Source: Bacteroidetes bacterium 47-18 (GTDB lineage Bacteria; Bacteroidota; Bacteroidia; Chitinophagales; Chitinophagaceae). Taken from it: a stretch of DNA of 64,000 nucleotides. The notes below the pieces were generated by a model. The model had not been told where the DNA came from. It worked only from the letters and a program-made list of their open reading frames with translations, and did not search any database. Both the position numbers and the translations under genes were made by a program. Within the stretch, counting starts at the first letter, position 1. The number at the start of each line of letters is the position of its first letter. The stretch spans positions 248,001 through 312,000 of the forward strand of contig MKSF01000013.1 of NCBI GenBank assembly GCA_001897155.1. The letters run 5' to 3'. Positions 2,287-39,823 of this stretch are shown here, piece after piece.

Positions 2287-2667
2287 ATGGATAAACATAT
2301 CATTAATTCAGAACAGGCTCCTGATCCTATCGGCCCGTATAATCACGCGGTCAGAACGGGCAACTTATTATTTATATCCGGACAGATACCATTTGACAAG
2401 GCCAGCGACCGGCTGATCACATCCGGGATACAGGATGAGACCCAAAAGGTAATGGAAAACCTGGAAGCCATCTTAACAGCAGCAGGCGCTACTTTCGGCA
2501 ACGTGGTGAAGGCCACCATCTTCCTGACAGATATGGGACAATTCAGCCAGGTAAACGAGGTATACGGCCGCTATTTCGCTGAAAACGCCCCCGCAAGGGA
2601 ATGCATCCAGGTAGCAGCTTTACCCAGAGGCGTTAACGTGGAAATATCCGTTATCGCCGCCCTGTAA
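2287..2667 (+). CDS. ridA: RidA family enamine/imine deaminase
   Basis: Protein of 126 residues matching the YjgF/YER057c/UK114 (RidA) family over its whole length: AIGPYN-like motif (PDPIGPYNHAV), GNLLFISGQIP, the NLEAILTAAGA helix, VVKATIFLTDM and the C-terminal PARECIQVAALPRGVNVEI segment with the conserved substrate-binding Arg. RidA hydrolyses reactive 2-aminoacrylate and related imines made by PLP enzymes, protecting other enzymes from damage. The protein is a cytoplasmic homotrimer in known cases. It is followed 44 bases later by an exported protein of unknown function, probably an independent gene. Confidence 0.95.
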   Translation: MDKHIINSEQAPDPIGPYNHAVRTGNLLFISGQIPFDKASDRLITSGIQDETQKVMENLEAILTAAGATFGNVVKATIFLTDMGQFSQVNEVYGRYFAENAPARECIQVAALPRGVNVEISVIAAL

Positions 2668-2711
2668 TTTTCAACTGACAAACAGGACAAACACCATTCA
2701 AACTTCTTTGT

Positions 2712-3548
2712 ATGAAAAACACCTTACTTAAAATTACAGCTATTGCTTTACTGAGCCTCCTGGCCGGTGAGACCCAGGCACAGTTCAATAGCCTGTACTA
2801 CAACAATAACAGGAAACGCCCTACTTTAAGACTCAGGATGCTGCAGCGTATGGATATCGGCTTTCATGCCGGCTTCGGCAAAGCCTTCTTTGATCAGAAG
2901 ATAAGCATGATGCGCCCCTGGTGGGATGAGAATTCTCAATCCAATGTTGATGTGGTGTTCAGTGAAGAAAATACTTTCAGGCTGAAAGGCTCCAGCTTCG
3001 GCGGCAATATAGGCTTCTACCTTCCCGTAGGATATGTTGCCAGGTTCACGCGCTTTGCGCTCAACGTGGAAGCTTATGTAACCTCTTCCAGCTACGAAAT
3101 ACAGGACTTCAAACTGTTCGGTACCCCCACAGGCGCACCGCTGGGTAATATCACCTGCTTAAGCATTGCCGTTCCGATAGGCTTTGATATCAAATGGGGT
3201 GGCCAGTCTACCCTGAGCAGGCATAGCTGGGCCTCCACAGGCATAGGCGGCGGTATAGCGCCCACTTATTATATGGTCACGCCCGCCACTACAGGTCCGA
3301 ATGCCAAGGAGCTCGCCGTAAGGCCGTATGTAAAGGCGGAATTCGGCTTCCTGACGGGTATCTTCTGGAAAGTGAAAGGCATGGTCTTCTTCAATAAAGT
3401 GACACCGGGACACTGGGTAACCGGCAACCCGGAAGCGGTAACAACGGCCGAACCTTACGTGGACCAGACCATGAGACTGAACAGGTTTACCTACAGCCTC
3501 GCGTTAAGCTTCAATATCGGCTCGCTCAAATGGAGCAGGGACTGGTAA
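2712..3548 (+). CDS. Predicted outer-membrane beta-barrel protein
   Basis: A 278-residue protein with a clear Sec signal peptide (MKNTLLKITAIALLSLLAG, cleavage after TQA). The remainder alternates polar and aromatic/hydrophobic residues, is rich in Gly, Tyr and Phe, and ends in strand-like segments (RFTYSLALSFNIGSL), as expected for a small outer-membrane beta-barrel of the kind common in Bacteroidota. No enzymatic motif is visible and no named family was recognised. It lies between ridA and a TIGR02117-type gene, so context does not suggest a job. Confidence 0.7.
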   Translation: MKNTLLKITAIALLSLLAGETQAQFNSLYYNNNRKRPTLRLRMLQRMDIGFHAGFGKAFFDQKISMMRPWWDENSQSNVDVVFSEENTFRLKGSSFGGNIGFYLPVGYVARFTRFALNVEAYVTSSSYEIQDFKLFGTPTGAPLGNITCLSIAVPIGFDIKWGGQSTLSRHSWASTGIGGGIAPTYYMVTPATTGPNAKELAVRPYVKAEFGFLTGIFWKVKGMVFFNKVTPGHWVTGNPEAVTTAEPYVDQTMRLNRFTYSLALSFNIGSLKWSRDW

Positions 3549-3630
3549 CAGCATATTATACAGATAGATGGTAAGCGGCAGGAAATTTTCTGTCGCTTTT
3601 TCTTTATATTCACATCATATTTCCACGATA

Positions 3631-4305
3631 ATGAAGCGGGCGCTGCTGTACATACAAAATATCATCTTTGGCATTATCCTTTTCCTCACCCTGGTACTGT
3701 GCGCAGAATGGATATGCTCCAGGATCACCGTACGCACCCTGCAGCCCGGGGGCGATATCACCGTGTACCTGCTGTCCAACGGCGCTCACACCGATATCGT
3801 GCTCCCGGTACGTAACCATATTATAGACTGGGACACCGTTTTCTCATCGGGGAATACGCTGGCGCGGGACACAACCCTTCCCTACCTGGGCATCGGCTGG
3901 GGCGATAAGGGATTTTACCTGGAAACACCCACCTGGTCGGACCTTACGGTATCCACAGCCTTTCACGCGATGACGGGATTGAGCAGCAGCGCTCTTCATT
4001 GCACCTATATGACCCGGCCGCAGCCGGGCGTAAGATGCGCGGCCACGCAGATCAATGCAGAACAATACCGGCAATTGATCGTTTTCATCAGGCAAACGGC
4101 CAGGGGATCCTCACCGCATGCAATACCCCTCCTGATCAGGACCAGTGCGGTGTACGGACGCCATGACGCATTCTATGAAGCCCATGGCAGCTACCATCTT
4201 TTCAATACCTGCAATACCTGGACGAACAGAGCGCTGAAAAAAGCCGGCATGAAGGCCGCGGTATGGCTGTTATTTGAAAAGCAACTGATTGATATATATA
4301 AATAA
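3631..4305 (+). CDS. TIGR02117 (DUF2459) family protein
   Basis: A 224-residue protein counted from the ATG at 3631 (MKRALLYIQN); the frame is open further upstream to 3568, but the 3631 start gives a clean N-terminal membrane anchor (IIFGIILFLTLVLCAEWI). The soluble part carries the family hallmarks: YLLSNGAHTDIVLPV, a WGDKGFYLETPTW segment and the C-terminal YHLFNTCNTWTNRALKKAG motif with Cys and His. The family is of unknown function and is seen in many Proteobacteria and Bacteroidota. The Asn-Thr-Cys-Asn-Thr-Trp motif suggests a possible NlpC/P60-like thiol hydrolase fold, which is inference. The next gene begins 7 bases after the stop. Confidence 0.8.
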   Translation: MKRALLYIQNIIFGIILFLTLVLCAEWICSRITVRTLQPGGDITVYLLSNGAHTDIVLPVRNHIIDWDTVFSSGNTLARDTTLPYLGIGWGDKGFYLETPTWSDLTVSTAFHAMTGLSSSALHCTYMTRPQPGVRCAATQINAEQYRQLIVFIRQTARGSSPHAIPLLIRTSAVYGRHDAFYEAHGSYHLFNTCNTWTNRALKKAGMKAAVWLLFEKQLIDIYK

Positions 4306-13159: not shown

Positions 13160-13186
13160 ACGGGCCGTATTGTGCCCGTCTTTTTT
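13160..13186 (+). terminator. glnS terminator
   Basis: ACGGGC (13160-13165) pairs with GCCCGT (13174-13179), followed by a T-run (13181-13186). It lies 24 bases after the glnS stop, and its T-run touches the end of the convergent AMP-ligase gene. Confidence 0.75.
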
Positions 13187-14714
13187 ATTGTAATAAGAGC
13201 TTACAGGCTTCATAGTCTATCTTGGAATAATGCCGCGGATCCCTGGGCAGATGCGGCAGCAGCCTTACATCGGCAATACCTGTGTTCAGGCTGTGAATAT
13301 TTTGTACCGCCCGTACCGGGTCTGCTCCCCTGACCACCTCCGCCACAATAACGGGTCCCGAAGCCCCCTGCAATACCGTACCTGCTGCCACACCCGCTGC
13401 CGATTGCAAAAGGTTTTCTATAAGGAAGGGCGCAATGATCGTGTCGCCATATGGTATCAGCGTACTGCAGCGTCCGGTCAGGTACAGGTGCCCATCCTTC
13501 ATAAAGCCGCTGTCACCCGTGCGGTGCCAGCATTGCTCCCGGGTGAATATCTTATTGCGCAGCAGTGCATCCGGGTTATTATAGTAGGCATCCAGCACAT
13601 GAGGACCTGCCACAATGATCTCCCCTATAGTTCCGGGTGGCAGGGACCAGCCATACAGCACATCATCCGCAGCAGCTTCCAGCGGCTCATCCTTATACGG
13701 TATAATAAGCACTTCCGCTACAGGTGCAGGCCTGCCCACATTCAGCCCTTCCGTAAAGGATGCCGCCTCGAAACGCAATAACCCGGAAGCCTCAATGCTG
13801 CTAATAGGTTCCGCTTCGGTAGAGCCGTACACGATCTTTATCCTTGCCTGCGGAAAGGCTTTTATATATTGCCGGGCTTCCCTCGGGAATACCGGCGCCC
13901 CTCCGGTAACCACCTTTCCCGGATATGGCATTTCCATATTACGTGCTGATACATAGGCCGCGAGCTGCTGTATGAAGAATGGCGATCCGATGAGCATGTC
14001 CGCCTTATACTGACCGAGCTGCGATACGATACGGGCCGTATCCATCTTACGCTTCTTTTTAGGATTGAAGGTGGCTATTACAGCCGTACAGCCCAATCCC
14101 AAACTCAAAAATAATACGATGGGCAACGCGATGATGCCTGTTTCTCCTGCTGCTATTCCCAGCTCCGCTTCCAGGGCATCAAACTGGTGGCGTAAAAAGC
14201 CATGGGTACGCTTTGCCGCTTTAGGCGTGCCGGTGCTGCCGGTAGTAAACGTGATCAGCGCGGTATCTGCTGTACCCGTTTCCGGTATCGCCCGGACCGT
14301 TACATGCTTACGGAACCCTTTTCCCAGGTGAACGGGAATACGCCTTATGGTAGCGGAAACCAAAGACAGCAGCCTTACCTTCCAGCCGCCTATCACCGCC
14401 CTGCACTGCGCGATATCACAGCACAGCTCCAGGCGCTTCAGGCTCACCCACTCATCCACGAAGACCGCCACCGCTCCTATCCGGAACAGCGCCAGCACTA
14501 TCCTGTACAGGTCAACGGACATCGGGATGAACACCAGCACATTATCGCCTTTACGGATCCCTTTGGACAGGAAATATTGCGCGGTACGGTCCACCTGGTC
14601 CGCCAGCTCCCCGAAAGTGACCTGCTGATGACCGTCAATGATAGCAATACGTTCGGGTGCTTCCTGCGCCCTGCCAAAGAAAAGACTGGTAATATTGAAC
14701 GGCCGTTGCATCAT
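13185..14714 (-). CDS. Acyl-AMP ligase (AMP-binding family), last gene of lipid operon
   Basis: A 509-residue ANL-superfamily adenylate-forming enzyme. The P-loop is TFTTGSTGTPKAAKR (about residues 155-170). VYGSTEAEPIS is the A5 motif, HRTGDSGFMKDGHLYLTGR gives the A7/A8 hinge region, and the C-terminal HYSKIDY carries the catalytic Lys position. These enzymes activate a carboxylic acid, usually a fatty acid, with ATP and then pass it to CoA or another acceptor. The first ATG pair (14714 and 14711) overlaps the stop of the upstream GNAT gene by ATGA. It is the fourth and last gene of a tightly coupled lipid operon, which suggests its acyl-AMP or acyl-CoA product feeds the GNAT protein. There is no peptide-synthetase module. 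Confidence 0.85.
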   Translation of the reverse strand: MMQRPFNITSLFFGRAQEAPERIAIIDGHQQVTFGELADQVDRTAQYFLSKGIRKGDNVLVFIPMSVDLYRIVLALFRIGAVAVFVDEWVSLKRLELCCDIAQCRAVIGGWKVRLLSLVSATIRRIPVHLGKGFRKHVTVRAIPETGTADTALITFTTGSTGTPKAAKRTHGFLRHQFDALEAELGIAAGETGIIALPIVLFLSLGLGCTAVIATFNPKKKRKMDTARIVSQLGQYKADMLIGSPFFIQQLAAYVSARNMEMPYPGKVVTGGAPVFPREARQYIKAFPQARIKIVYGSTEAEPISSIEASGLLRFEAASFTEGLNVGRPAPVAEVLIIPYKDEPLEAAADDVLYGWSLPPGTIGEIIVAGPHVLDAYYNNPDALLRNKIFTREQCWHRTGDSGFMKDGHLYLTGRCSTLIPYGDTIIAPFLIENLLQSAAGVAAGTVLQGASGPVIVAEVVRGADPVRAVQNIHSLNTGIADVRLLPHLPRDPRHYSKIDYEACKLLLQ

Positions 14715-15718
14715 AATGTCTTTCCGAAAAGCATGTAAGTTTTAAAAATACGGCCGTTAAAATGCCCGGATATTGCCGTCGAGGTACCCTGGTTGTACAT
14801 AAATGCATGGATAATGCTGGTATAGCCCCGGGCCGCAGCTTCCCGGTAAACCTGGGCCGCCATAAGATGCCCCAATCCCCTGAAACGCGGGTCTGGATCT
14901 CTCGCTATTGTTTTAATGATCAGCGTCCTGCTGGCTGTATCATACAGGTCATCTATACATAAAAAGACACCAGCGACAGCCCCCGCGGCATCCTCTGCCA
15001 GGAGCACGAATTCTTTTTTCAGGTATGGCTGCAGCGGCAGGTATTTATCCAGGAAATCTTCCAGGGTTATCGGCGTGTACAGGAAATTCCGGGAGAAGGC
15101 CTGCAGCAGGAAAGGGTGCAGCCGCACCAGCTCTTCGCGATAAGCTGCCAGGTCTAAAGATCGTAGCCTGATCCCTGCCGGCTCCAATGCTGTCTTTATA
15201 CTACTGATCATCTCCTCATCTACGGAGAGGTCCTCCGTGAGGCCGGACCCATATTCCCCGATGGTCGTCCAGCCATTCTCTTTCCATTGCTGTATGTAAT
15301 AAGGCCGGTGCAGGGGTTCGGTAAAGAACAGCGGCAGTTCCGCCTCGTTGATAAAACGGTATTGTTCCCAGGTAGAGCCGTTCATAGGGCCTATCATATA
15401 TCCTGCTCCTGATGTTCCGGCATAGGCTTCCAGGTGACCCAGCAAAGCGGCGGCAGCAGCAGCACCTGGAATACACTCGTAATGGCCTATACAAACGGTA
15501 TCTGCTCCCTTATATTGAAGGGCAGGGTTCCGGTAAACAGCAGCCCGGGCTACGGGCATACCTTCCGAGATCAATACCCAGCAGCTATCCAGGTGCCGGT
15601 GCGCCGGGAATTCGCGCTGCTTTACAGCCTGCTCCTGTGGCGAAGGATAGCATTGTGCTATGCAATCCGTGAACAGGTGGAAATCTGCGGCGCCGGGATA
15701 AGTGCGTACCGGCGTCAT
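14711..15718 (-). CDS. GNAT-fold acyltransferase, lipid operon
   Basis: A 335-residue protein from the ATG at 15718 (MTPVRTYPGAADF); the frame extends further up, but this ATG overlaps the upstream stop as ATGA, like every junction in this operon. The C-terminal half has the GNAT acyl-CoA-binding pattern: IIKTIARDPDPRFRGLGHLMAAQVYREAAARGYTS with R-x-x-G-x-G/A. A conserved-looking MIGPMNGSTWEQYRF lies in the middle. GNAT enzymes transfer acyl groups from CoA or ACP to amines. Between a DUF3419 enzyme that makes amino-lipids and an acyl-activating ligase, an N-acyltransferase acting on a lipid amino group is the simplest guess; this is inference. Confidence 0.75.
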   Translation of the reverse strand: MTPVRTYPGAADFHLFTDCIAQCYPSPQEQAVKQREFPAHRHLDSCWVLISEGMPVARAAVYRNPALQYKGADTVCIGHYECIPGAAAAAALLGHLEAYAGTSGAGYMIGPMNGSTWEQYRFINEAELPLFFTEPLHRPYYIQQWKENGWTTIGEYGSGLTEDLSVDEEMISSIKTALEPAGIRLRSLDLAAYREELVRLHPFLLQAFSRNFLYTPITLEDFLDKYLPLQPYLKKEFVLLAEDAAGAVAGVFLCIDDLYDTASRTLIIKTIARDPDPRFRGLGHLMAAQVYREAAARGYTSIIHAFMYNQGTSTAISGHFNGRIFKTYMLFGKTL

Positions 15719-16398
15719 AAGCCCAACATATTTCCGGAGAGTACCAGTCCCAACAGTACCGATAGCGGTATGGTCAGGTTGTCCCATCCTTTTTTACTGA
15801 ATGCTTCCACAGCGGAAGATAACAGGCCAATCAGCAGGGCTGCGCCCAGGAGCAGTGCAGGACTGCCGTCAAAGCCGGTAACCAGCGCAAAGCTTATAAC
15901 AAGAAGGGCAGCGCAGATACAGAATACCAGGCTCCCCATCAGGGTTTTGCTCCCGGCTCCCGTGGTGTACCTGCCCAATGGCCATTTCCGGCCGGTAAGC
16001 GCGGCGGCCGGGTCGCAGACCGCCAGGATGATAACAGGCAGGTAGTAGTAAATGAACCGGCCGCCATAATGATCGTATGCCAGATAACAGGTATAGACCG
16101 CCAGCGGGTAAGCCAGGCTGCCTACGGATTGCCTTTCAATGGCATTAATGGAGGGCAGCAGCTTCCATTTTAGACTCGCTGTAAGGATCACGGCAAAGGT
16201 GGCGCATAATAATAGCACCAGCCAGTGATTACCCAGCATAAGAGGGAATAAAAGCGCCAGCAGGCCCGTACCCAGGTGCACCAGCTTACGGGTATATTCC
16301 GCTTTCACTTTAAATAGATGATACAGCAGCTCGGCCAGCGCGAAGAGCAGCAGAAAAGCCCCTGCCAGTATCAGCGTGTTCGTAATATCTTTACTCAT
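15715..16398 (-). CDS. CTP-type lipid kinase / cytidylyltransferase homologue
   Basis: A 227-residue integral membrane protein with about seven helices. It shows the DGK1/SEC59/VTE5 (dolichol, phytol and diacylglycerol kinase) pattern: ALAELLYHLFKVKAEYTRKLVHLGTG, then ILAVCDPAAALTGR and GSKTLMGSLVF. These enzymes use CTP to phosphorylate a lipid alcohol; the wider family includes CdsA, and automated tools often call it phosphatidate cytidylyltransferase. The CdsA C-terminal signature is absent. It overlaps both neighbours by ATGA, so it is made together with the DUF3419 transferase, GNAT and acyl ligase. Diacylglycerol is the obvious shared substrate because DUF3419/BtaA enzymes also act on it. 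Confidence 0.8.
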   Translation of the reverse strand: MSKDITNTLILAGAFLLLFALAELLYHLFKVKAEYTRKLVHLGTGLLALLFPLMLGNHWLVLLLCATFAVILTASLKWKLLPSINAIERQSVGSLAYPLAVYTCYLAYDHYGGRFIYYYLPVIILAVCDPAAALTGRKWPLGRYTTGAGSKTLMGSLVFCICAALLVISFALVTGFDGSPALLLGAALLIGLLSSAVEAFSKKGWDNLTIPLSVLLGLVLSGNMLGL

Positions 16399-17510
16399 TG
16401 TTTCTGATCTGTAATGAACCGTTGATAAAAGAATCCTTTGTCTTTGGCTGTCAGCGCCCGTGACAGCCCGTCCAGGCAGCGCAGCTCTGCCGGCAGTATG
16501 CTGCTCAGCATACGGGGCACCATCAGGTTCCAGTACGCCACCCGGCCGCCGGAGTGAAGACCGTCCACCAATTGGCGACCCGTCTCCCGGAAGGTTTCCC
16601 TGTCCATATATTCAAAGATATTGGAAAGATTCATTTTATCCATACTCCCGTATTTTTTCAAGGCATCCTGTGCATATCCCTGCTCCAGCTGCAGGGCCTG
16701 AATATTATCTTTTATCTTGTCATAGTTCGTTTCCTGCAGATAGTGCGGCAATAACGTCCCGAAATCACCCGTAAGGTTATACCGGAGCATAAAATTACGC
16801 TGCGCCTCTATGGACCGAAGCTGCCGTTCGGCCTGCCCAAAAATAAAACGGGCAACAGGCACTTCGACCTCCTTCAGGAATTCAGGGTCCCTTCCGAACC
16901 TTCCCATAACGAACCTGCTGAAGAAGATTTTAAACAGGGCTTTCCACCTGAAGCTGTTCCAGGTAGTCTCGTAAAACAGCTCCTGTTCCTGACCGCTCTT
17001 GGGCGCCAGTAAGGCCTGCACGGTGCGCCGTGAGTGGATAAAAGGCAAAATACGCCTGACAAAGAAACGGAAGTAACGCTCAAACTTACCCTGGTGGATC
17101 ACCCCGGCTTCCAGGCTTTCCCTGTTATGATCCCAGAAATAGCGGCACTCCCTGCTTAAATGTCCTGCAAGGCTCCTGTACATATCCCACCGCCCGGAGG
17201 AAGGCACGAAGCCCAGCAATACCAGGGTGGAAGAACGATTCAGGTATTGAAAGCAGGCTTTCTTAAGCTCCACCAGGAACAGTTGCGAAGGGTTGATATC
17301 TACTGCCACCAGGAGACCTGGCGCAGCGGTCAGCAAGGACAAGCTGTTATCCCCGGCAGAACCGACAGACAGCACTTTCTGCCCTGCAGTTACCTGCAGC
17401 CCTTCCAACAGGATATCCGCATCTTCCCAGCAATTGGCATAACGGATAAAATCAAAGGCTACCTTATGATCCAGTTGTTTTGTCTCAGTATGTACAGTAT
17501 TGTTTGTCAT
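16395..17510 (-). CDS. DUF3419 / BtaA-like S-adenosylmethionine:diacylglycerol 3-amino-3-carboxypropyl transferase
   Basis: A 371-residue protein from the ATG at 17510, which has an upstream AGAGGG as ribosome binding site; the frame extends to 17591. The N-terminal YANCWEDADILLEGLQV, then KVLSVGSAGDNSLSLL and VAVDINPSQLFLVELKKACF, match the SAM-binding fold of DUF3419/BtaA, and the C-terminal half has the NIFEYMDRETF and GGRVAYWNLMVPR segments of that family. BtaA moves the aminocarboxypropyl group of SAM onto diacylglycerol to give diacylglyceryl-homoserine, first step of betaine lipids. No BtaB N-methyltransferase follows. It is the first gene of the four-gene operon. Two short inverted repeats lie in its leader (17534-17557). 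Confidence 0.83.
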   Translation of the reverse strand: MTNNTVHTETKQLDHKVAFDFIRYANCWEDADILLEGLQVTAGQKVLSVGSAGDNSLSLLTAAPGLLVAVDINPSQLFLVELKKACFQYLNRSSTLVLLGFVPSSGRWDMYRSLAGHLSRECRYFWDHNRESLEAGVIHQGKFERYFRFFVRRILPFIHSRRTVQALLAPKSGQEQELFYETTWNSFRWKALFKIFFSRFVMGRFGRDPEFLKEVEVPVARFIFGQAERQLRSIEAQRNFMLRYNLTGDFGTLLPHYLQETNYDKIKDNIQALQLEQGYAQDALKKYGSMDKMNLSNIFEYMDRETFRETGRQLVDGLHSGGRVAYWNLMVPRMLSSILPAELRCLDGLSRALTAKDKGFFYQRFITDQKQ

Positions 17511-21832: not shown

Positions 21833-22615
21833 TCAGAAGTTGGACCGGCGGCCGCCTCCGTGAGAGGCACGGCCTCCCATTGCTGCTATACGCCGTACCT
21901 GGGCTTTGCTCATAGCTGCAAAGCCTCTTTTGCTGCCCGAGGCAGAACCGGAGCTACCCCTGGAAGAGCCGGAAGACCCCCTGGAACCACCGGAACTCCT
22001 GCCGGAGCTGCCTGAATTACCACCCCTTGATGAACCGCCGCTTCTGGAAGAGCCGCCGGAGGAGGAATTACTGCCCCTGGAACCACCGGAACCTCTGCCG
22101 GATGATGATGAACCTCCCCTGCCCGATGAGCCGGAACGTGATGAGCCGGAATTACCACCACCGCCGGAACTCCGACCGCCGCCATGGGAAGCACGGCCAC
22201 CCTTGGCAGCTATACGACGTACTTCTTCACGGTCCATGGACGCAAATCCTCGGCCTCCTGATCTCCTGCCGGACCTGGATGAGCCGCCGTAATCGTCATC
22301 ATCATCATAGTCTTCGTCATCCTCGTAGTCATCATAATCTTCATCGTCATCATAATCATCGTAGTCATCATCGCCGTAATCGTCATCATCATAATGATCA
22401 TAGTCATCATCAAACTCCTCACCATTTTCGGCATCTTCATAGCCTGCCTGGTAACCGGCCCTGAAGCCTTCTTCGTAAGAGTCATCATCATGGTAGCTGT
22501 CATCCTGGTGACTGCCGCTGCCGCGATTGGAACTACCTGTATTACTTCTTCTGGACGAGCTGTTTCCTGAACGGCCCGATGAGCCTGATTGGCTTCTTGT
22601 TGAACGCATTGCCAT
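21833..22615 (-). CDS. KGG-motif stress protein with Asp/Tyr-rich and Gly/Ser-rich low-complexity regions
   Basis: A 260-residue protein. Residues 1-40 are Ser/Arg/Gly-rich. Residues 40-115 are a run of Asp, Glu and Tyr. About residues 123-147 carry GFASMDREEVRRIAAKGG, and the last 32 residues repeat it as GFAAMSKAQVRRIAAMGGRA followed by SHGGGR. Between them lies a long Gly/Ser/Arg tract. The two motifs are the KGG stress motif (family of GsiB and plant LEA-like proteins), seen in desiccation and general-stress proteins. The rest should be intrinsically disordered. It is probably a cytoplasmic protectant or nucleic-acid binder; that is inference. A promoter-like motif shared with another gene of this island sits upstream. 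Confidence 0.85.
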   Translation of the reverse strand: MAMRSTRSQSGSSGRSGNSSSRRSNTGSSNRGSGSHQDDSYHDDDSYEEGFRAGYQAGYEDAENGEEFDDDYDHYDDDDYGDDDYDDYDDDEDYDDYEDDEDYDDDDDYGGSSRSGRRSGGRGFASMDREEVRRIAAKGGRASHGGGRSSGGGGNSGSSRSGSSGRGGSSSSGRGSGGSRGSNSSSGGSSRSGGSSRGGNSGSSGRSSGGSRGSSGSSRGSSGSASGSKRGFAAMSKAQVRRIAAMGGRASHGGGRRSNF

Positions 22616-33232: not shown

Positions 33233-35860
33233 TCAGGGCTCAGCCTGCCCTTCTGTATGCTCAGGGGATGTTATGATACGGATATACCCGCTGCTGCCAT
33301 CCATCTCTACCACATCACCGGTATGCAAGCGCTGCAGCAGGCCCGTCACTCCTACAATGCACGGCTTGCCCATCTCCCGCGAGACAATGGCGGAATGGCT
33401 TAGCAGGCTGCCTCTTTCCACTATAATGCCGGACGCGCCGGGAAAAAGGGTCACCCAGCCGGGATCCGTGCTGGAAGTCACCAGGATAGCGCCTTCCATA
33501 TCCGATACTGACGTGGGGTCGGTCACTACCTTCACCGGTGCGCGTACGATGCCGGGACAGCAGCCGGTCCCCTTCAGGTCACCAGTTGTGACCTCCACCT
33601 TAAGGCGGGAATAGAAGTCATTGGCATGATACACTATGCCATAGGTGGCAAAACGCTCTGCAGGGACGGGCATAGCCTTGTACGCCTCCGATTCCCCCTT
33701 ACGATGCACTGCCAGGGCACGGATATCCTGTGTCACACTGCGGCCTTCTATAAAAGCAAATATCTCCTCCCGTGTAAGGTAAAAGATGTCCCTGGGGTCT
33801 GCCAGGATACGTTCGGCATACCAGCGCTGTCCCATAGCCGAGAATAGGGCCCTCACGATCCCGAATGCCCTTGTCCGCTCATAGCGCAGGTTCTCACGCG
33901 CGCTTACCAGCTCACGGGTCTTCGACAGGGCTTTCCTTATCCACCATTTTTTCAGGAACCGGCCTTTCAAAGCCGGCCCCAGCGCGTTTTCCGCCCGTTC
34001 CCTGATCGCCTGCTCGGCATGGGTATCAATACTGGCTGCCGTGATGCCCGAATGCACATAGGATTTCAGCACCCTGATGAACAGGCGGGGATCCTGCGAG
34101 TAGGAAACCGTTTCCAGCTTCAGCTCTCCTATACAGCGCTCCCCTAAATCATCAATGTACCGCTCTATTTCCCTGCGCAGCTCTATATACGCAGCATCTG
34201 AAGATACCTTTGTCCATACCGCGTCTGCATCCTGCTCCGCAAACAGCTTTTTCCAGGCAGGGTTATCGCTGATCATCGTGGCCAGCGCAATGCTCCTGTG
34301 GATAGGCTGGGTGGAAATAATATCCCGGCTGCCGCACAGCAGGTCGTTGTGTATATTGGGGCTACCTGGGATGCAGGACGCAGTCTGCTTCTGCAGTATG
34401 CCGAACCAGACCATGGCAAAAAAGTCATTCAGCAGGGGCGCTTTCCATTCATTCAGCAACTGCCGCTCAAAATCAAGATACAGGTCCATCAACTGGTGAG
34501 CCGACAGCCGGCTCATATTCATACGCTTGTACCGCCCTATCACCTCATCCAATAAACGCTGGAACGCCGCCCGCTCTGCCGGGAGACGCTTATACCTGTA
34601 CAGCATCTGTACCGCCATCCGGGTAACGCGCCACCACGCCTTTCCTCTGGACAGGGGTGTATGGCCCGGCAGGTCAAAGCGCTCCTTTACCCCCATCATC
34701 TGCTCCATGAAGCGCGCGTTAATGCTATATCCCGGTACCAGTGCCAGCATCCGGTACCAGGTCTTCAGGTTGTAATAGACCCTGCCGTTCATGAACCCCA
34801 GCGTATTTTTAAACACGCGGTCATTATCCTGCAGCGTCTGCCCGTCCACGCCCAGGAATTCGCAGAACAGCCGGTAAGCTCCTTCATACGACCGGCTGAT
34901 AAAGGAAAAGGTCAGTGGCGTGGTTACGCCCGGGTAGGATTCAACAATGTTGCTGTTATCCCACAGGGTGTACACATCGCTGCTGTCCGCCAGCTTATGC
35001 AGTACCGTCACCGCACGGGACTGTAATACATACAGGTGACCCTCCTTCCGGGCGAATTCAACATCCTGGTAAGTACCGAAGACCCGATATACGGTATCCA
35101 GCACCGATGTCACTTCCAGTATCGTCTCATCATCCAGCGCTGCTGCCTGCTGCAGCTCCACGGGGACACTCTCTGTACGGGTTCCGCCTTCCGGACGGTC
35201 ATCCTGCACGACCCGCTGCTGCTTGAGGACGATCTGCCTGCTGATACCACCATCTTCCGCAACGGTATAAACGTCCGCATCCAATGCTCCCGATACCAGT
35301 CCTTCGCCCAGTCCCCATACGGCGCTGATGACCTTTTGCTTCCTGTTGCCATCCGACGGGTGGATACCGAAGGCCACCCCCGCAGCATCCGCTGCTATCA
35401 TTTCCTGTATAATAACGGCTATGCCCGGCTGCGCCTGCAGGTTATTGGTTTCCCTGTAAGCAGCCACCCGGCCGGAAAATGCGGACAGCCACACTTCCCT
35501 GATCTTAGCGGGAATATCTTCCGCCCTTACAAACAGGAAAGATTCAAACTGGCCCGCAAACGAGGTTTCCGCCCCGTCTTCCTCTACAGCCGATGAACGT
35601 ACCGCAAACCAGGAAGTGCCGGGAAAATCAGCCTTTATTTTGTGTATTAACGTTTCATCAAAAGTATGACCCATGATGCGTCTCCTGACCTCTCCGGGTT
35701 CCTGCGCTCCCTGCAATACCGCTTCCAGCGTTTCCGCGGGTATTACCATCCACCCGGGAACGCTGAGTCCCGCCTGCTCCAGCCGGGCCAGGTGCCAGGC
35801 CTTCCCGCCTATGGAGCCTATAGCGGCTGTTGCAGCCTCTGTATGCCGTATGATCTTCAT
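33233..35860 (-). CDS. PEP-synthase/rifampin-phosphotransferase-like dikinase
   Basis: An 875-residue protein. Residues about 1-310 are the PPDK/PEP-synthase ATP-binding domain (GGKAWHLARLEQAGLSVPGW, WFAVRSSAVEEDGAETSFAG, VIIQEMIAADAAGVAFG). Residues 310-780 are a helical central region. About 790-860 form the swivelling phospho-histidine domain with GSLLSHSAIVSREMGKPCIV, the His being the phosphate carrier. The C-terminal PEP-binding TIM barrel of true PEP synthase is missing, so the architecture matches rifampin phosphotransferase: ATP domain, substrate domain, His domain. The reaction should transfer the beta-phosphate of ATP to a small molecule or lipid alcohol. It is the last gene of the HMGR-UbiA operon (ATGA overlap at 35857), so an isoprenoid or phospholipid substrate is suggested. 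Confidence 0.85.
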   Translation of the reverse strand: MKIIRHTEAATAAIGSIGGKAWHLARLEQAGLSVPGWMVIPAETLEAVLQGAQEPGEVRRRIMGHTFDETLIHKIKADFPGTSWFAVRSSAVEEDGAETSFAGQFESFLFVRAEDIPAKIREVWLSAFSGRVAAYRETNNLQAQPGIAVIIQEMIAADAAGVAFGIHPSDGNRKQKVISAVWGLGEGLVSGALDADVYTVAEDGGISRQIVLKQQRVVQDDRPEGGTRTESVPVELQQAAALDDETILEVTSVLDTVYRVFGTYQDVEFARKEGHLYVLQSRAVTVLHKLADSSDVYTLWDNSNIVESYPGVTTPLTFSFISRSYEGAYRLFCEFLGVDGQTLQDNDRVFKNTLGFMNGRVYYNLKTWYRMLALVPGYSINARFMEQMMGVKERFDLPGHTPLSRGKAWWRVTRMAVQMLYRYKRLPAERAAFQRLLDEVIGRYKRMNMSRLSAHQLMDLYLDFERQLLNEWKAPLLNDFFAMVWFGILQKQTASCIPGSPNIHNDLLCGSRDIISTQPIHRSIALATMISDNPAWKKLFAEQDADAVWTKVSSDAAYIELRREIERYIDDLGERCIGELKLETVSYSQDPRLFIRVLKSYVHSGITAASIDTHAEQAIRERAENALGPALKGRFLKKWWIRKALSKTRELVSARENLRYERTRAFGIVRALFSAMGQRWYAERILADPRDIFYLTREEIFAFIEGRSVTQDIRALAVHRKGESEAYKAMPVPAERFATYGIVYHANDFYSRLKVEVTTGDLKGTGCCPGIVRAPVKVVTDPTSVSDMEGAILVTSSTDPGWVTLFPGASGIIVERGSLLSHSAIVSREMGKPCIVGVTGLLQRLHTGDVVEMDGSSGYIRIITSPEHTEGQAEP

Positions 35861-36237
35861 TGGTTACCTCCTTTTCTGTTGATGATCCTGATATACTGCC
35901 TGCGGCACAGCCATTCCGTAAATACGCCCTGTACCAGCCACAGCACCACATGGAAATAACGCGGGCGGAGTATGCCTATAATATTGGTCTGCCGGTCAAT
36001 TCCGAAGTGCCGCTGGATGAGCGTATCGGTAGTGTTGACAGTGAGCTGCAGCGGACCGGACAATGGCATCCAGTACGTTTCCAGGAAAGCAAGGCAGACC
36101 GCGAAAATGGCAATGTTCACCAGCCTGTGATGCCGCACCATCCTGGCGCCCCAGAAGAAGTAAAGGGTAGCCCCCGTAAAGATGCAGTGGATAACGGTGA
36201 TCCACAGGTATATCAGGTATACTATTATAATGCTCAT
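35857..36237 (-). CDS. Small membrane protein of the isoprenoid/phospholipid operon
   Basis: A 126-residue protein with three or four hydrophobic helices (IIIVYLIYLWITVIHCIF, LVNIAIFAVCLAFLETYW, FHVVLWLVQGVFTEWL) and a soluble loop between (TTDTLIQRHFGIDRQTNI). No family recognised. It overlaps its neighbours at both ends by ATGA (with UbiA at 36234-36237 and with the dikinase at 35857-35860), so its level is tied to theirs. It could be a partner subunit of one of them. Confidence 0.75.
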   Translation of the reverse strand: MSIIIVYLIYLWITVIHCIFTGATLYFFWGARMVRHHRLVNIAIFAVCLAFLETYWMPLSGPLQLTVNTTDTLIQRHFGIDRQTNIIGILRPRYFHVVLWLVQGVFTEWLCRRQYIRIINRKGGNQ

Positions 36238-37199
36238 ACGTTCAGTAATCTTTCTATCATCGGTACGCCTCCCAGCGTGAGATACATAGCTATGGTCCAG
36301 GCGGCGGACGCGCCTTCTATCATTTTGCCTGCCCTGCGGCTTTTATGTTTCAGGTACAATAACGCGGGCGTGCAGCATACGACATATATCACGGACAGGA
36401 TGATGGTGCCCGTAGTGCCGTAACCGGCATATGCGGAGGCCAGGATGCTGAGCAGCAGGGAAAGCGAGAGCATTCCTATCCATAAAACGGCCGACCCGGC
36501 CGGTCCCAGCATGGCAGAATAGGTCAGCACTCCTTCCGATTCCTGCTCAGGAGCCCGGATCTTCCTCCCAATCTCCAGCACGATGCCGCTCATAAAGGAA
36601 ACAGCGAAAAAGTACAGCAGCCCGCCGGGAGCCCGCACACCTTCCAGCATCCAGTCCAGCCCGCTGGCATAAATATCAATAAGGGGAATGATCAGCATGT
36701 GGGAGACCACGTACCAGAACTGGTGACGCTTCAGCCAGTCCGCCACAAAAAATTCTTTGGACATCAACAGCAAATAGCCCAATGCCAGGGCGTAAAGCAG
36801 CAGCATCTTCGGGAAGACAACAGCGTTAAGCCCCACCTGCAGGCATACAACGATGATCCCTATATTCCGCAATTCCCTGAAGCTGACCAGTCCCCTCGGC
36901 ACCGGCAATTCCCTGCGGTACAGCGCGTCTTCCTTAGCATCCTTGAACTCATCGAAGATCCGGACCAGCAAGAAAAGGCTGACGGTCGTAAAGACGCCTG
37001 CCAGGAATACTTTCCAGCTTACAAAGCCATCCTCGCCCCTGCAGATCCTGGAATAGGCCACGGCTGAAAAGCTGAAAGCCGCAACCAGCAGGCCATGGCC
37101 TGCCAGGGGGAAGCGTTCCTTCTGGTATATATACAAACGCTTCCATAAAGGCGCATTGTTCTCTTCCGGCCTGCTGTAAGGATTTGTCAGGGTTTCCAT
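36234..37199 (-). CDS. UbiA-superfamily prenyltransferase
   Basis: A 321-residue integral membrane protein with about nine helices. The first Asp-rich motif is in RIFDEFKDAKEDALYRREL, the Mg/diphosphate-binding site of UbiA enzymes, followed by VPRGLVSFRELRNIG. The second motif, normally Asp-rich, is here EIGRKIRAPEQESEG, with Glu and Arg in place of Asp, which sets it apart from UbiA, MenA and heme O synthase. UbiA enzymes attach a prenyl chain to an aromatic or polar acceptor; in archaea a homologue makes ether lipids. In an operon with HMG-CoA reductase and CDP-alcohol enzymes the acceptor may be a lipid or polyol. Confidence 0.85.
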   Translation of the reverse strand: METLTNPYSRPEENNAPLWKRLYIYQKERFPLAGHGLLVAAFSFSAVAYSRICRGEDGFVSWKVFLAGVFTTVSLFLLVRIFDEFKDAKEDALYRRELPVPRGLVSFRELRNIGIIVVCLQVGLNAVVFPKMLLLYALALGYLLLMSKEFFVADWLKRHQFWYVVSHMLIIPLIDIYASGLDWMLEGVRAPGGLLYFFAVSFMSGIVLEIGRKIRAPEQESEGVLTYSAMLGPAGSAVLWIGMLSLSLLLSILASAYAGYGTTGTIILSVIYVVCCTPALLYLKHKSRRAGKMIEGASAAWTIAMYLTLGGVPMIERLLNV

Positions 37200-37216: not shown

Positions 37217-37923
37217 TTAAAAAATCAGCCAGCAGACGGCCCCGGCCATCATATAGCTGTCAAACCTGTCCAGGATACCGCCATGGCCGGGTATCAGCCT
37301 GCTGTAGTCCTTAATGCCACATTTCCTTTTGTATAAGGACGCCAGCAGGCGCCGGTCATGGCAGCCGTAGCCAGGACAAGCGTCTTCATAACCAGGTGCG
37401 ATACGGGCAGGCCTGTAATATCCTGCAGCAGCAAGGAAGTAATGACGACGCTGACATAGCCCCCGATCACACCCGCCAGGGTCTTTTCCGGGCTGATGAC
37501 AGGGAATATCTTTTTTCTTCCCAGCAACTGGCCTGTGATCTGGGCAAATCCGTCAAAGACAAAGACAATGGTGTACACGAATAAAAGCCCGTCCGTATCC
37601 TGCCCGAACGCATGCAGGCAGAAAGCGGCGGCTACCGGTATATATATGCCCAGGCTTTTCCACAGCAGCGGGCGGTTGCGGGCAGACCGCAGCCAGGCCG
37701 CAAGCATCTCGTACAGACCGGTCCCCGCAATGGCCAGCACCAGCAACGGCAGCAGGCCGTAAAAGATACAGGCAACAGTGACGCTCACCACCAGCAGGTA
37801 AAAAATATATTTTACCCACCGGTCCCGGGCAGCATAGGCCTTATTCCTGCGATTGATGATCACGATCGCCAGTCCGCCGAACAGGAAATACCCTGCAATG
37901 ATATAGATCAGCGCCTGTATCAT
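37217..37923 (-). pseudogene. cdsA: CdsA-type phosphatidate cytidylyltransferase, frameshifted near the 3' end
   Basis: The main frame (37294-37923) encodes about 200 residues of a multi-helix CdsA-like protein ([17 protein letters not shown]) but leaves frame at AAMTGACW and stops. One base lower, reading resumes as [20 protein letters not shown], then [14 protein letters not shown], to a stop at 37217: the exact CdsA signature S-x-x-K-R-x4-K-D-x-S...P-x-H-G-G-x-x-D-R-x-D. Restoring a single base between 37349 and 37350 (GGCGCCTG to GGCGACCTG) would give the expected GD-L-L. CdsA makes CDP-diacylglycerol from CTP and phosphatidate. As written the catalytic end is lost. It overlaps the upstream gene by one base (TAATG). 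Confidence 0.85.
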
Positions 37924-38504
37924 TACTGTGTAGATTTATTGGCTTTTAGCACGAGGAAAACACTTTTGACATTGGACCTTAAACGGGGCAAATATATTAC
38001 CAGCACCAGCTCTTCCAGGTATGCAAGGTAAGAGCAGGCTATCATAAAGTAAAAATAGGCGGGATGGAATCCCCAGACAAAATAGGTCACAATAAAAATA
38101 CCCTGGATATAGCCCACCGCCTTGTTGGACCACAGGTGAAAGCTGGGAAAACGCCGGAAGCGTATAAGGGATATGACCTGGGGCAGCAGCCACAGCACCA
38201 GCATCAGTATAAAAGGTACCCTGTAAGTATGTACGAACGCGCTTTCCAGTACGATCATGCCCGTAAACGCCATCAGGTAAGTACCGATATCAGCAAGCGA
38301 ATCCAGCCTCGCGCCGAATTCGGTCTGCATCCGGAAGGTCCTGGCGATCCACCCGTCCAGGATGTCCGTCACCAGGTTGACCGCTATCAGCGTAATGAAC
38401 AGGGACTTATTGCCATCCGCAATGCTATATACTATAAAAGGCAATGCCGCCAGCCTGTATGCCGACAGGATATTGGGTATATTGATCACTTTTTCTTTTG
38501 TCAT
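37923..38504 (-). CDS. CDP-alcohol phosphatidyltransferase
   Basis: A 193-residue integral membrane enzyme. It carries the full CAP motif D-G-x2-A-R-x8-G-x3-D-x3-D as DGWIARTFRMQTEFGARLDS, then LAD (about residues 50-72). Such enzymes replace CMP of a CDP-activated lipid with an alcohol, giving phosphatidylglycerol-phosphate, phosphatidylserine, phosphatidylinositol and similar lipids; the alcohol cannot be told from the motif. It lies between HMG-CoA reductase (38 bases upstream) and CdsA (1-base overlap), and so probably uses the CDP-lipid that CdsA makes. Confidence 0.92.
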   Translation of the reverse strand: MTKEKVINIPNILSAYRLAALPFIVYSIADGNKSLFITLIAVNLVTDILDGWIARTFRMQTEFGARLDSLADIGTYLMAFTGMIVLESAFVHTYRVPFILMLVLWLLPQVISLIRFRRFPSFHLWSNKAVGYIQGIFIVTYFVWGFHPAYFYFMIACSYLAYLEELVLVIYLPRLRSNVKSVFLVLKANKSTQ

Positions 38505-38542: not shown

Positions 38543-39823
38543 CTATTTCTGCTGCCTGCCGAATTTTTTATGGGCATCGGAAAAATGTCCCGCTGAGAGC
38601 GCCGCCGCAATGCTTAATTCCCCGGCCAGGATGACAGCACCGCAGATCTCCGCATATTTCCGGGCATTGCCTGCCCCATAGCAGCCCATCAGCTCCAGGC
38701 ACTCCCGCTGTGTAGGCAGCGAAGTGCCCCCGCCCACCGTTCCGACGATCAGGTTGGGAAGCGTGACACTGGCATACAGGGAGCCGTCAGGTCTTTTTTC
38801 CATACGGGTAATGCCTGTTGCGGCTTCCGCCACACAGGCCACATCCTGGCCGGTAGCCATAAACAGGGCTGCCAGGCCATTGGCGTAATGGCCATGCGCG
38901 CCGATAGCACCGCTTTGTACAATACCGATGGTGGAAGACTGCCAGTAGGTGGCCATAGCATCCACGGAAGTCTTTAAGACCCGCTCCACAATGGCTTCCG
39001 GCAGCACGATCTCCGCCGTCACCTTCTTGCCTCTCGTTGCATTGAAGGATTGCGCCGTGGCCTTTTTATCACCGGAATAGTTGCTTTCAATGCACCATTG
39101 CTCCGGCGCGGCAGGACAATGGGCCACCATATAACGGCAGATGGCATCCGTACAGATGGTCACCATATTCTGACCCGCCGCATCCCCTGTTGTGTATTCA
39201 AAGGTCAGGATCAGGTGATTGCCTTCAATATTCACTTTCATTTCATGCAGCAGGGCATAATTGCTGTGCGCGGCTACGATTTCATGAAAAGCATCCATCT
39301 GCGTCAGCGCCCACCCCAGGAATGTTCCCAGCTCCGTAATACTGTTAAACTTAAATAAGGGACTGCGCTGCACCGCTTCTACCAGGCATATGGAGGTGAC
39401 ACCTCCTGCCAGGTAACAGGCTTTGGCGCCCCTGTGGTAAGAAGCCACCAGGGCTCCCTCGCTGGTAGCGAGGGACACAAAGTAATCGCCGCTGGCCTCG
39501 GTACCCAGCACCCTTACGGGGCCGATAACACCGGTGGGCACCTGCGTCATACCGATATAGTTCTCAATATTGCCAGCCAGCCTGTTAAGGTCGTCCGGTT
39601 GCCGCTGGCCTGTAAGAAAAGCCGGCATATAGCCTGTTTCCTCTTTCAGGAATGCCAGCCGGGCATCTGTGCTGTCCCTGCTTACCCCGAATTCCAGCGG
39701 CAGACCGTCCTTCCTGGGATGATCTACCGTTTTCTGCCGGATCGCGGCAATGATATTTTCTATTTTCCTGGTTGCATCAATTTTCGATAGCGCCGCCCTG
39801 GCCCTGTGCTCATTTGAAGACAT
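38543..39823 (-). CDS. HMG-CoA reductase
   Basis: A 426-residue enzyme matching class I HMG-CoA reductase: NYIGMTQVPTGVIGPVRV, then SLATSEGALVASYHRGAKA (catalytic Glu), TGDAAGQNMVTICTDA, the Lys region NYSGDKKATAQSF, GAIGAHGHYANGLAALF, NLIVGTVGGGTSLPTQ, and LSAGHFSDAHKKFGR with the catalytic His. It reduces HMG-CoA to mevalonate with two NADPH, the committed step of the mevalonate route to isoprenoids. No other mevalonate-pathway gene is in the window. It heads the six-gene operon; TATCTTTA at 39851-39844 (minus strand) could be its -7 box with a 14-base leader. Confidence 0.95.
   Translation of the reverse strand: MSSNEHRARAALSKIDATRKIENIIAAIRQKTVDHPRKDGLPLEFGVSRDSTDARLAFLKEETGYMPAFLTGQRQPDDLNRLAGNIENYIGMTQVPTGVIGPVRVLGTEASGDYFVSLATSEGALVASYHRGAKACYLAGGVTSICLVEAVQRSPLFKFNSITELGTFLGWALTQMDAFHEIVAAHSNYALLHEMKVNIEGNHLILTFEYTTGDAAGQNMVTICTDAICRYMVAHCPAAPEQWCIESNYSGDKKATAQSFNATRGKKVTAEIVLPEAIVERVLKTSVDAMATYWQSSTIGIVQSGAIGAHGHYANGLAALFMATGQDVACVAEAATGITRMEKRPDGSLYASVTLPNLIVGTVGGGTSLPTQRECLELMGCYGAGNARKYAEICGAVILAGELSIAAALSAGHFSDAHKKFGRQQK

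Follow-up and report, generated by a model that had tools for sequence, protein, structure and literature searches.

Among the described systems closest to the genes considered here are the BtaA/BtaB route to the betaine lipid diacylglyceryl trimethylhomoserine (DGTS), archaeal ether-lipid synthesis with its digeranylgeranylglyceryl phosphate (DGGGP) synthase, class I 3-hydroxy-3-methylglutaryl-coenzyme A (HMG-CoA) reductase (HMGR) and the salvage of phytol to tocopherol. In the tocopherol pathway, the transferase that acts after VTE5 and VTE6 is of the UbiA type, a superfamily in which a second Asp-rich motif is expected. The consulted sections of the literature give the phosphorylation steps of phytol salvage as VTE5 followed by VTE6 (PMC9515888), and report orthologues of geranylgeranylglyceryl phosphate (GGGP) synthase and DGGGP synthase in bacteria of the Fibrobacteres–Chlorobi–Bacteroidetes group, where their use is not known (PMC6431249). 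Here, we describe seven genes in a stretch of 64,000 nucleotides from Bacteroidetes bacterium 47-18 (contig MKSF01000013.1, positions 248,001 to 312,000 of the forward strand), to which we refer as the window. Genes for an HMGR-like enzyme, a UbiA-like enzyme and a dikinase, together with four genes termed P1–P4, form one set that is held together in several gene orders and several phyla. We tentatively favour the view, short of calling it probable, that the window holds, in two blocks, one conserved seven-enzyme pathway to an N-acylated, homoserine-headed ether lipid. The seven genes are:

16395-17510, minus strand: P1, DUF3419 protein, 371 aa (PF11899, 213 bits vs a cut-off of 28.2, residues 19-367)
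15715-16398, minus strand: P2, polytopic protein and putative lipid-alcohol kinase, 227 aa (weak PF01148-type similarity)
14711-15718, minus strand: P3, tandem GNAT protein and putative N-acyltransferase, 335 aa (PF00583, 22.0 bits vs a cut-off of 20.7)
13185-14714, minus strand: P4, AMP-binding (acyl-AMP/acyl-CoA) ligase, PRK09274/OleC-like, 509 aa (PF00501, 150 bits)
38543-39823, minus strand: HMGR homologue with an altered substrate pocket, putative acyl-thioester reductase (PF00368, 368.8 bits)
36234-37199, minus strand: UbiA-type membrane transferase, DGGGP-synthase-like (PF01040, 41.7 bits vs 34.2)
33233-35860, minus strand: dikinase with a PPDK_N (ATP-grasp) domain and a C-terminal phosphoenolpyruvate (PEP)-utilizer His domain (Pfam domain matches)

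A preliminary description of this DNA had read P1–P4 as a lipid operon of four minus-strand genes with an ATGA overlap at each junction (16395-16398, 15715-15718 and 14711-14714), and both the reading frames and the junction sequences are as it claimed. The operon is thus real, but incomplete, as its HMGR-like, UbiA-like and dikinase partners had been overlooked. Maps of P1 loci from other genomes revealed these three as recurrent extra genes, mostly directly upstream and with the dikinase as a PPDK_N/PEP-utilizer protein of ~860 aa, and a tblastn search with the recurrent partner genes located all three on the minus strand of the window. There, they form a second operon-like run (33-40 kb) together with three extra genes described further below, and ~16 kb separates the two blocks of the set in the window's genome.

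The conservation of the set was assessed by scanning genome contigs for P1, which yielded 72 loci, many on contigs that end early, and by counting the partners up to 9 kb from P1, using profiles derived from the proteins of the window and from homologous sequences. Every locus was found via P1, so all partner counts are conditional on it. Across the 72 loci, P1 is accompanied by P2 in 60, the dikinase in 57, P3 and P4 in 53 each, the UbiA-like gene in 48 and the HMGR-like gene in 42. Where more than 8 kb is available on both sides (31 loci), the corresponding counts are 30 for the dikinase, which is the most constant partner, 29 each for P3, P4 and the UbiA-like gene, 26 for P2 and 23 for the HMGR-like gene; all six partners are present in 21 of these loci and none in one (L033). 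Likewise, 8 of 12 further Bacteroidota loci (L108-L118, L123) contain all six. With 31 of the 72 loci, these eight and one plasmid locus, all seven genes are found in 40 loci, in four gene orders seen 32, 4, 3 and 1 times, and in six phyla, namely Bacteroidota, Chlorobiota, Verrucomicrobiota, Kiritimatiellota, Lentisphaerota and Pseudomonadota. Phyla were assigned from record titles and tree labels, and many carriers are metagenome bins, whose taxon labels may err; on the same basis, P1 itself spans about 15 phyla. The idea that the four genes belong together, for which the preliminary description had named recurrence in other genomes as the touchstone, came through this survey strongly, and the association is more than a chance one.

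Dyadobacter fermentans (L017) and Rubritalea profundi (L065) also possess the full set, and in Roseinatronobacter sp. S2 (Alphaproteobacteria) it lies, in the same order, on a 137-kb plasmid (L105, NZ_CP121116.1), with the HMGR-like gene cut by the end of the record. This plasmid location is a sign of horizontal transfer. P1 is absent from all 35 other genomes examined in the family to which the window belongs, which suggests that it was gained horizontally. A reciprocal search with the UbiA-like protein identified 11 of 395 Bacteroidota genomes, ten of which are among the twelve with a strong P1 match (E below 1e-40). A homologue of the HMGR-like protein with at least 50% identity occurs in nine Bacteroidota genomes, eight of them with a strong P1; the ninth (G106) is considered below. 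That the seven genes have been kept through four orders, six phyla and a plasmid argues for a pathway worth keeping, probably one that makes a membrane lipid.

P1 had been described as BtaA-like. While its membership in the DUF3419 family is clear, it does not belong to the BtaA clade: in a maximum-likelihood tree that has several long branches, and whose deep joins are unsure, P1 lies inside an 85-row clade (support 99/91) apart from a group in which a DUF3419 protein from Rhizobium (L107) is joined by 16 from a single Bacteroidota family (f43), perhaps Flavobacteriaceae. In this BtaA-side group, a BtaB-like methyltransferase adjoins the DUF3419 gene in 17/17 loci. In the P1 clade, no such methyltransferase is found in the window, a single weak match lies beside P1 (L075, E 4e-6), and another locus (L023) has a BtaB-like match about 8 kb from P1. 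The absence of BtaB, noted earlier for the window, is therefore a trait of the clade, and together with the separate clade it led us to reject P1 as a BtaA of betaine-lipid (DGTS) synthesis. Solved relatives of P1 were not detected by sequence: a protein search gave none at E 1, and a profile search gave one chance-level match (E 0.24). From its family, we infer that P1 is probably an S-adenosylmethionine (SAM):lipid-alcohol 3-amino-3-carboxypropyltransferase. A very divergent further type of DUF3419 protein was seen in two other genomes (G140 and G313); at L122:4309-5448 (minus strand), the protein after it matches GNAT below threshold.

The HMGR-like protein retains the catalytic residues of class I HMGR, but not those that recognize its substrate. 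In an alignment of 53 rows (52 loci and the window, with one row, L119 of G106, in no cluster), and in human HMGR numbering, Glu559 is kept in 51/51 covering rows and Lys691, Asp767 and His866 in 53/53 each. By contrast, Lys735, which binds the HMG carboxylate, is replaced by S, V, T, A, I, M or L in 53/53, Ser684 by Glu or Asp in 52/52 covering rows and Met657 by Gln in 52/52, whereas the aligned archaeal (6hr7) and plant (8ecg) enzymes retain the original HMG-carboxylate residues. The protein scores 314 bits against NCBIfam TIGR00533, under the cut-off of 441.8. We also scanned 26 carrier genomes, G000 plus 25 chosen among the loci, and control genomes gave the expected results. HMG-CoA synthase was found in one of the 26 (G081), with no match in the window's own genome, Dxr, an enzyme of the methylerythritol phosphate (MEP) pathway, in 24, and HMGR in 25. 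With HMG-CoA synthase missing from 25/26 carriers and Dxr present in 24/26, the ordinary mevalonate route was rejected, and the genome context shows that the HMGR-like enzyme stands outside the mevalonate-to-isopentenyl diphosphate route in nearly all carriers tested. It may instead act as an acyl-thioester reductase.

This protein seems to belong to a wider non-mevalonate HMGR family in Bacteroidota, as HMG-CoA synthase was found in only one (G106) of 25 genomes with HMGR homologues, of which 24 do not belong to the strong-P1 set and one, G070, additionally holds a cluster copy. The homologue of G106 (L119, 7836-9092, minus strand) has the altered pocket, and P1 is absent from its genome. Another homologue (L127) adjoins a family-2 glycosyltransferase and an ArsA ATPase. 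The HMGR of G081 (L124), which lies beside an HMG-CoA-synthase-like gene, is too divergent (42 bits) for use as a reference in the alignment.

The best match of the UbiA-like profile in the Protein Data Bank (PDB) is DGGGP synthase (6m31, E 8e-8), which also ranks first by Foldseek for the predicted structure (pLDDT, the model confidence score, of 93.3); by VIA-align, the model comes equally close to Aeropyrum UbiA (Z 20.0) and to DGGGP synthase (19.6). The first Asp motif, D83/D87/D91, is present in 60/60 rows. In the dikinase, His822 is found in 60 of 62 rows, which are the 60 that cover the position. Its only domain matches are PPDK_N and the mobile domain, the latter at the C-terminus, and a PEP-binding C-terminal domain was not matched; none of the curated models reaches its cut-off (best 746.7 bits vs 883). 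A function as PEP synthase was rejected, as the PEP/pyruvate-binding C-terminal domain is missing.

For P2, the earlier call as a CTP-dependent lipid kinase is a weak one. The protein has no family match above a curated cut-off, and 5/27 homologues match PF01148 at E <= 0.1 (best 3.8e-4, 20.8 bits vs 24). Its comparison with the PF01148 cytidylyltransferase of the window is not significant, nor is the control comparison with UbiA, and its profile has no match in the PDB. Eleven residues are nevertheless invariant in 77/77 rows (R37, K38, H41, R89, G93, D129, G136, K151, G155, D206 and N207). Beyond the main Bacteroidota clade, P2 is in most loci (L037, L041, L050, L053, L055, L059, L065 and others) ~430-480 aa long, with a C-terminal extension of ~220 aa in which no Pfam family exceeds its cut-off in the members scanned. 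The AlphaFold2 model of P3 (pLDDT 95.6) has a tandem GNAT fold, the closest structure being MAB_4324 (7q3a; Z 22.4, root-mean-square deviation 3.8, 290 aligned residues), followed by glucosamine N-acetyltransferase (Z 19.9) and mycothiol synthase (19.3), with N-myristoyltransferases at Z ~15; the P3 profile gave only weak matches to solved structures (best E 0.046). The N-acylation proposed in the preliminary description would fit this predicted fold, whose nearest relatives are amine N-acetyltransferases. The best NCBIfam models for P4 are both below their cut-offs, PRK09274 with 305.8 bits vs 478 and OleC with 176.8 vs 900. The latter shortfall speaks against an OleC-type beta-lactone route, which we rejected; OleA and OleD were not searched for. 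In several Bacteroidota loci, an SRPBCC protein (PF10604) lies between P3 and P4 (e.g. L010:6156-6755).

Variant operons hint at the roles of the HMGR-like enzyme, P2 and P4 by what stands in their place. L116 is a tight run of an NAD_binding_4 reductase, a DAGK_cat kinase, the UbiA-like enzyme, the dikinase, P3, a phosphatidylserine (PS)-decarboxylase homologue and P1. In L115, the run comprises an NAD_binding_4 reductase, the dikinase, P1, P2, the UbiA-like enzyme, P3 and a PS-decarboxylase homologue, and in L117, DAGK_cat, P1, P3 and a pyridoxal phosphate-dependent decarboxylase lie in a row. In L118, a protein that we presume to be AAR-like lies 7 bases before P1, its only Pfam match being a sub-threshold one to Shikimate_DH. 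Three loci without the HMGR-like gene (L115, L116, L118) thus have an acyl-reductase-type gene instead, two without P2 (L116, L117) a diacylglycerol (DAG)-type kinase, and the three P4-less loci L115-L117 a decarboxylase gene. L039 likewise lacks the HMGR-like gene and P4; one tetratricopeptide repeat protein was examined there. At the end of the L115 operon (2509-3633, minus strand) lies an MMPL/RND-like protein (18.6 vs 20.5 bits, sub-threshold), perhaps a lipid exporter.

Three further genes share the second block of the window with the HMGR-like, UbiA-like and dikinase genes:

37923-38504, minus strand: CDP-alcohol phosphatidyltransferase, occasional cluster member (PF01066, 73 bits; homologues in L008, L024, L030 and L073)
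37294-37923, minus strand: cytidylyltransferase (CTP_transf_1), occasional member (PF01148, 52.7 bits; homologues in L008, L030 and L073)
35857-36237, minus strand: small 126-aa protein, membrane-like by eye, with an ATGA overlap with each neighbour

The first two are joined by TAATG, and the small protein has no homologue in the fetched loci. The same holds for a DesA-type fatty-acid desaturase (PF00487; 31279-32106, minus strand) encoded ~1.1 kb downstream of the dikinase gene. Elsewhere in the window, at 21833-22615 (minus strand), a Gly/Ser/Asp-rich protein of very low complexity shows, by eye, repeated KGG-like motifs.

While the gene set is an observation, the following chemistry is what we infer from it. 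In the order that we propose, which employs each of the seven genes once, P4 would activate a fatty acid, and the HMGR-like enzyme would reduce the acyl thioester to an alcohol, a task that another acyl reductase seems to perform in the variants. P2 (or the DAG-type kinase in the variants) and the dikinase would then phosphorylate this alcohol in the way that VTE5 and VTE6 act on phytol, a parallel that backs the two phosphorylations by analogy only. The UbiA-like enzyme, being near DGGGP synthase, could join the activated chain to a glycerol-type acceptor as an ether, P1 would move the 3-amino-3-carboxypropyl group of SAM onto a free hydroxyl, and P3 would acylate the amine. The last two steps are the safest, the phosphorylations and the ether formation the least safe. 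One speculation is that a 2-enoyl thioester serves as substrate of the reductase, which would supply the UbiA-like enzyme with an allylic donor. Taken to its full extent, this would give bacteria an equivalent of the way in which archaea make ether lipids. An HMGR-derived reductase would convert fatty acids, possibly in the form of trans-2-enoyl thioesters, to (allylic) alcohols; these would be phosphorylated twice and linked as ethers to a glycerol-type acceptor by a DGGGP-synthase-like UbiA enzyme, and the ether lipid would be furnished with a SAM-derived homoserine head and an N-acyl chain. Such non-isoprenoid lipids would form a new class, made by a new route that has spread horizontally. 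We regard this extended version as doubtful.

Several points weigh against the proposed pathway. UbiA enzymes require allylic donors, and a saturated alkyl donor would be odd; this preference is the chief chemical difficulty of the proposed order. The second Asp motif of the UbiA-like protein is replaced by E209/R212/K213/E220. P2 is only weakly assigned as a lipid-alcohol kinase of the SEC59/VTE5/DGK1 type, and the substitution pattern of the variant operons rests on four Bacteroidota loci (L115-L118). In the Chloroflexota loci, the HMGR-like gene and P2 are missing nearby and no substitute was noted; G072 (L041) has the cluster and no HMGR match in its genome at all, and G080 has the full set and neither Dxr nor HMG-CoA synthase. 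Finally, HMGR homologues outside the cluster (L125, L126, L127) have the same altered pocket, so these changes mark a family wider than this pathway, and in G106, which has no P1 cluster, the altered pocket occurs alongside an HMG-CoA synthase.

Other readings account for parts of the set. Conceivably, the reductase acts on the head group: P1 would make a homoserine lipid on diacylglycerol, P4 would activate its carboxylate, the HMGR-like enzyme would reduce it to a primary alcohol, P3 would N-acylate the resulting sphingoid-like amino alcohol to a ceramide mimic, and a kinase would phosphorylate it. Such a scheme employs P4 and the HMGR-like enzyme jointly, the Glu or Asp at the HMG-carboxylate serine (52/52 covering rows) could hold the ammonium group, and the decarboxylase of the P4-less L115, L116 and L117 looks as though the carboxylate were removed there. 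However, an acyl reductase coexists with a decarboxylase in L115 and L116, meaning that loci expected to have lost the carboxylate still retain the reductase; the Glu is also found in the homologues outside the cluster, and the UbiA-like enzyme and the dikinase are left without a role, which makes this reading unlikely, if still a serious contender. Alternatively, the product might be isoprenoid, a prenyl ether of archaeal type that carries a homoserine head. The UbiA-like enzyme would then use ordinary MEP-derived prenyl diphosphates, with P2 as a polyprenol kinase and the HMGR-like enzyme modifying an isoprenoid or head-group acid. The enzyme's UbiA family membership, closeness to DGGGP synthase and intact first Asp motif (60/60 rows) would fit, as would Dxr in 24/26 carriers. 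Against this, neither an acyl-AMP ligase for the chain nor an acyl reductase would be needed, while the variant operons hold acyl-reductase-type genes, and we came across neither a GGGP synthase nor a prenyl synthase in the cluster, although no search was aimed at either; we therefore find an isoprenoid product rather improbable.

We consider it very unlikely that the UbiA-like enzyme adds a sugar phosphate to a lipid phosphate made by P2 or the dikinase, in the manner of decaprenyl-phosphate phosphoribosyltransferase. A membrane phosphoribosyltransferase (8j8j, Z 17.1) is among its UbiA-fold matches, and its second motif is basic, with R212 and K213 in 60/60 rows, but both DGGGP synthase and Aeropyrum UbiA rank above it (Z 19.4-20.0), and a clear link to P1 and P3 is missing. 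Hardly credible, in our view, is the ordinary betaine- or homoserine-lipid operon, in which P1 acts on diacylglycerol, P3 and P4 N-acylate the product, P2 serves to recycle diacylglycerol and the remaining three genes lie nearby by chance. In its favour, P1 clearly belongs to DUF3419 and the four genes lie side by side in the window, but the dikinase, UbiA-like and HMGR-like genes adjoin P1 in 30, 29 and 23 of the 31 long-flank loci, through four orders. The scheme of the preliminary description, plain diacylglyceryl-homoserine with N-acylation and DAG recycling, thus fails to explain these three genes.

Each of the seven proteins belongs to a known superfamily, but the set itself is new to the searched literature, and only the P1 step ties to a known pathway. 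No description of the seven-gene set was found in the open-licence full-text literature; the consulted sections of PMC12419801 place HMG-CoA reductase and UbiA in other neighbourhoods and do not concern this set. If the ether-lipid pathway proposed here is correct, a relative of HMG-CoA reductase has turned into an acyl reductase, UbiA chemistry is used for bacterial ether lipids, and DUF3419 genes of the P1 clade are no marker of betaine lipids, which would matter for surveys that use btaA-like genes as a marker.

The set can be compared with the systems outlined at the beginning. P1 shares the DUF3419 domain of BtaA, and hence probably the aminocarboxypropyl transfer from SAM, but differs from the BtaA/BtaB system in its clade, in the lack of a BtaB beside it and in its six other accompanying genes. 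The HMGR homologue has the fold family (PF00368) and the catalytic Glu, Lys, Asp and His of class I HMG-CoA reductase, whereas the Lys/Ser pair for the HMG carboxylate and both Met residues of the NADPH motif have been exchanged, and its carriers mostly have Dxr and no HMG-CoA synthase. With rifampin phosphotransferase, PEP synthase-like dikinases and the prodigiosin ligase PigC, the window's dikinase shares an N-terminal ATP-grasp and a C-terminal mobile His domain, but it stays below the cut-offs of all curated models and lacks the PEP-binding C-terminal domain. The UbiA-like protein has the archaeal ether-lipid enzyme DGGGP synthase as its best profile and Foldseek match, yet it is only ~15% identical, has its second Asp motif replaced and is bacterial. 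Lastly, the proposed pathway would follow the same logic as the salvage of phytol to tocopherol, an alcohol, two phosphorylations and a UbiA-type transferase, except that an unrelated dikinase would act as the second kinase, a reductase would supply the alcohol and the acceptor would be non-aromatic.

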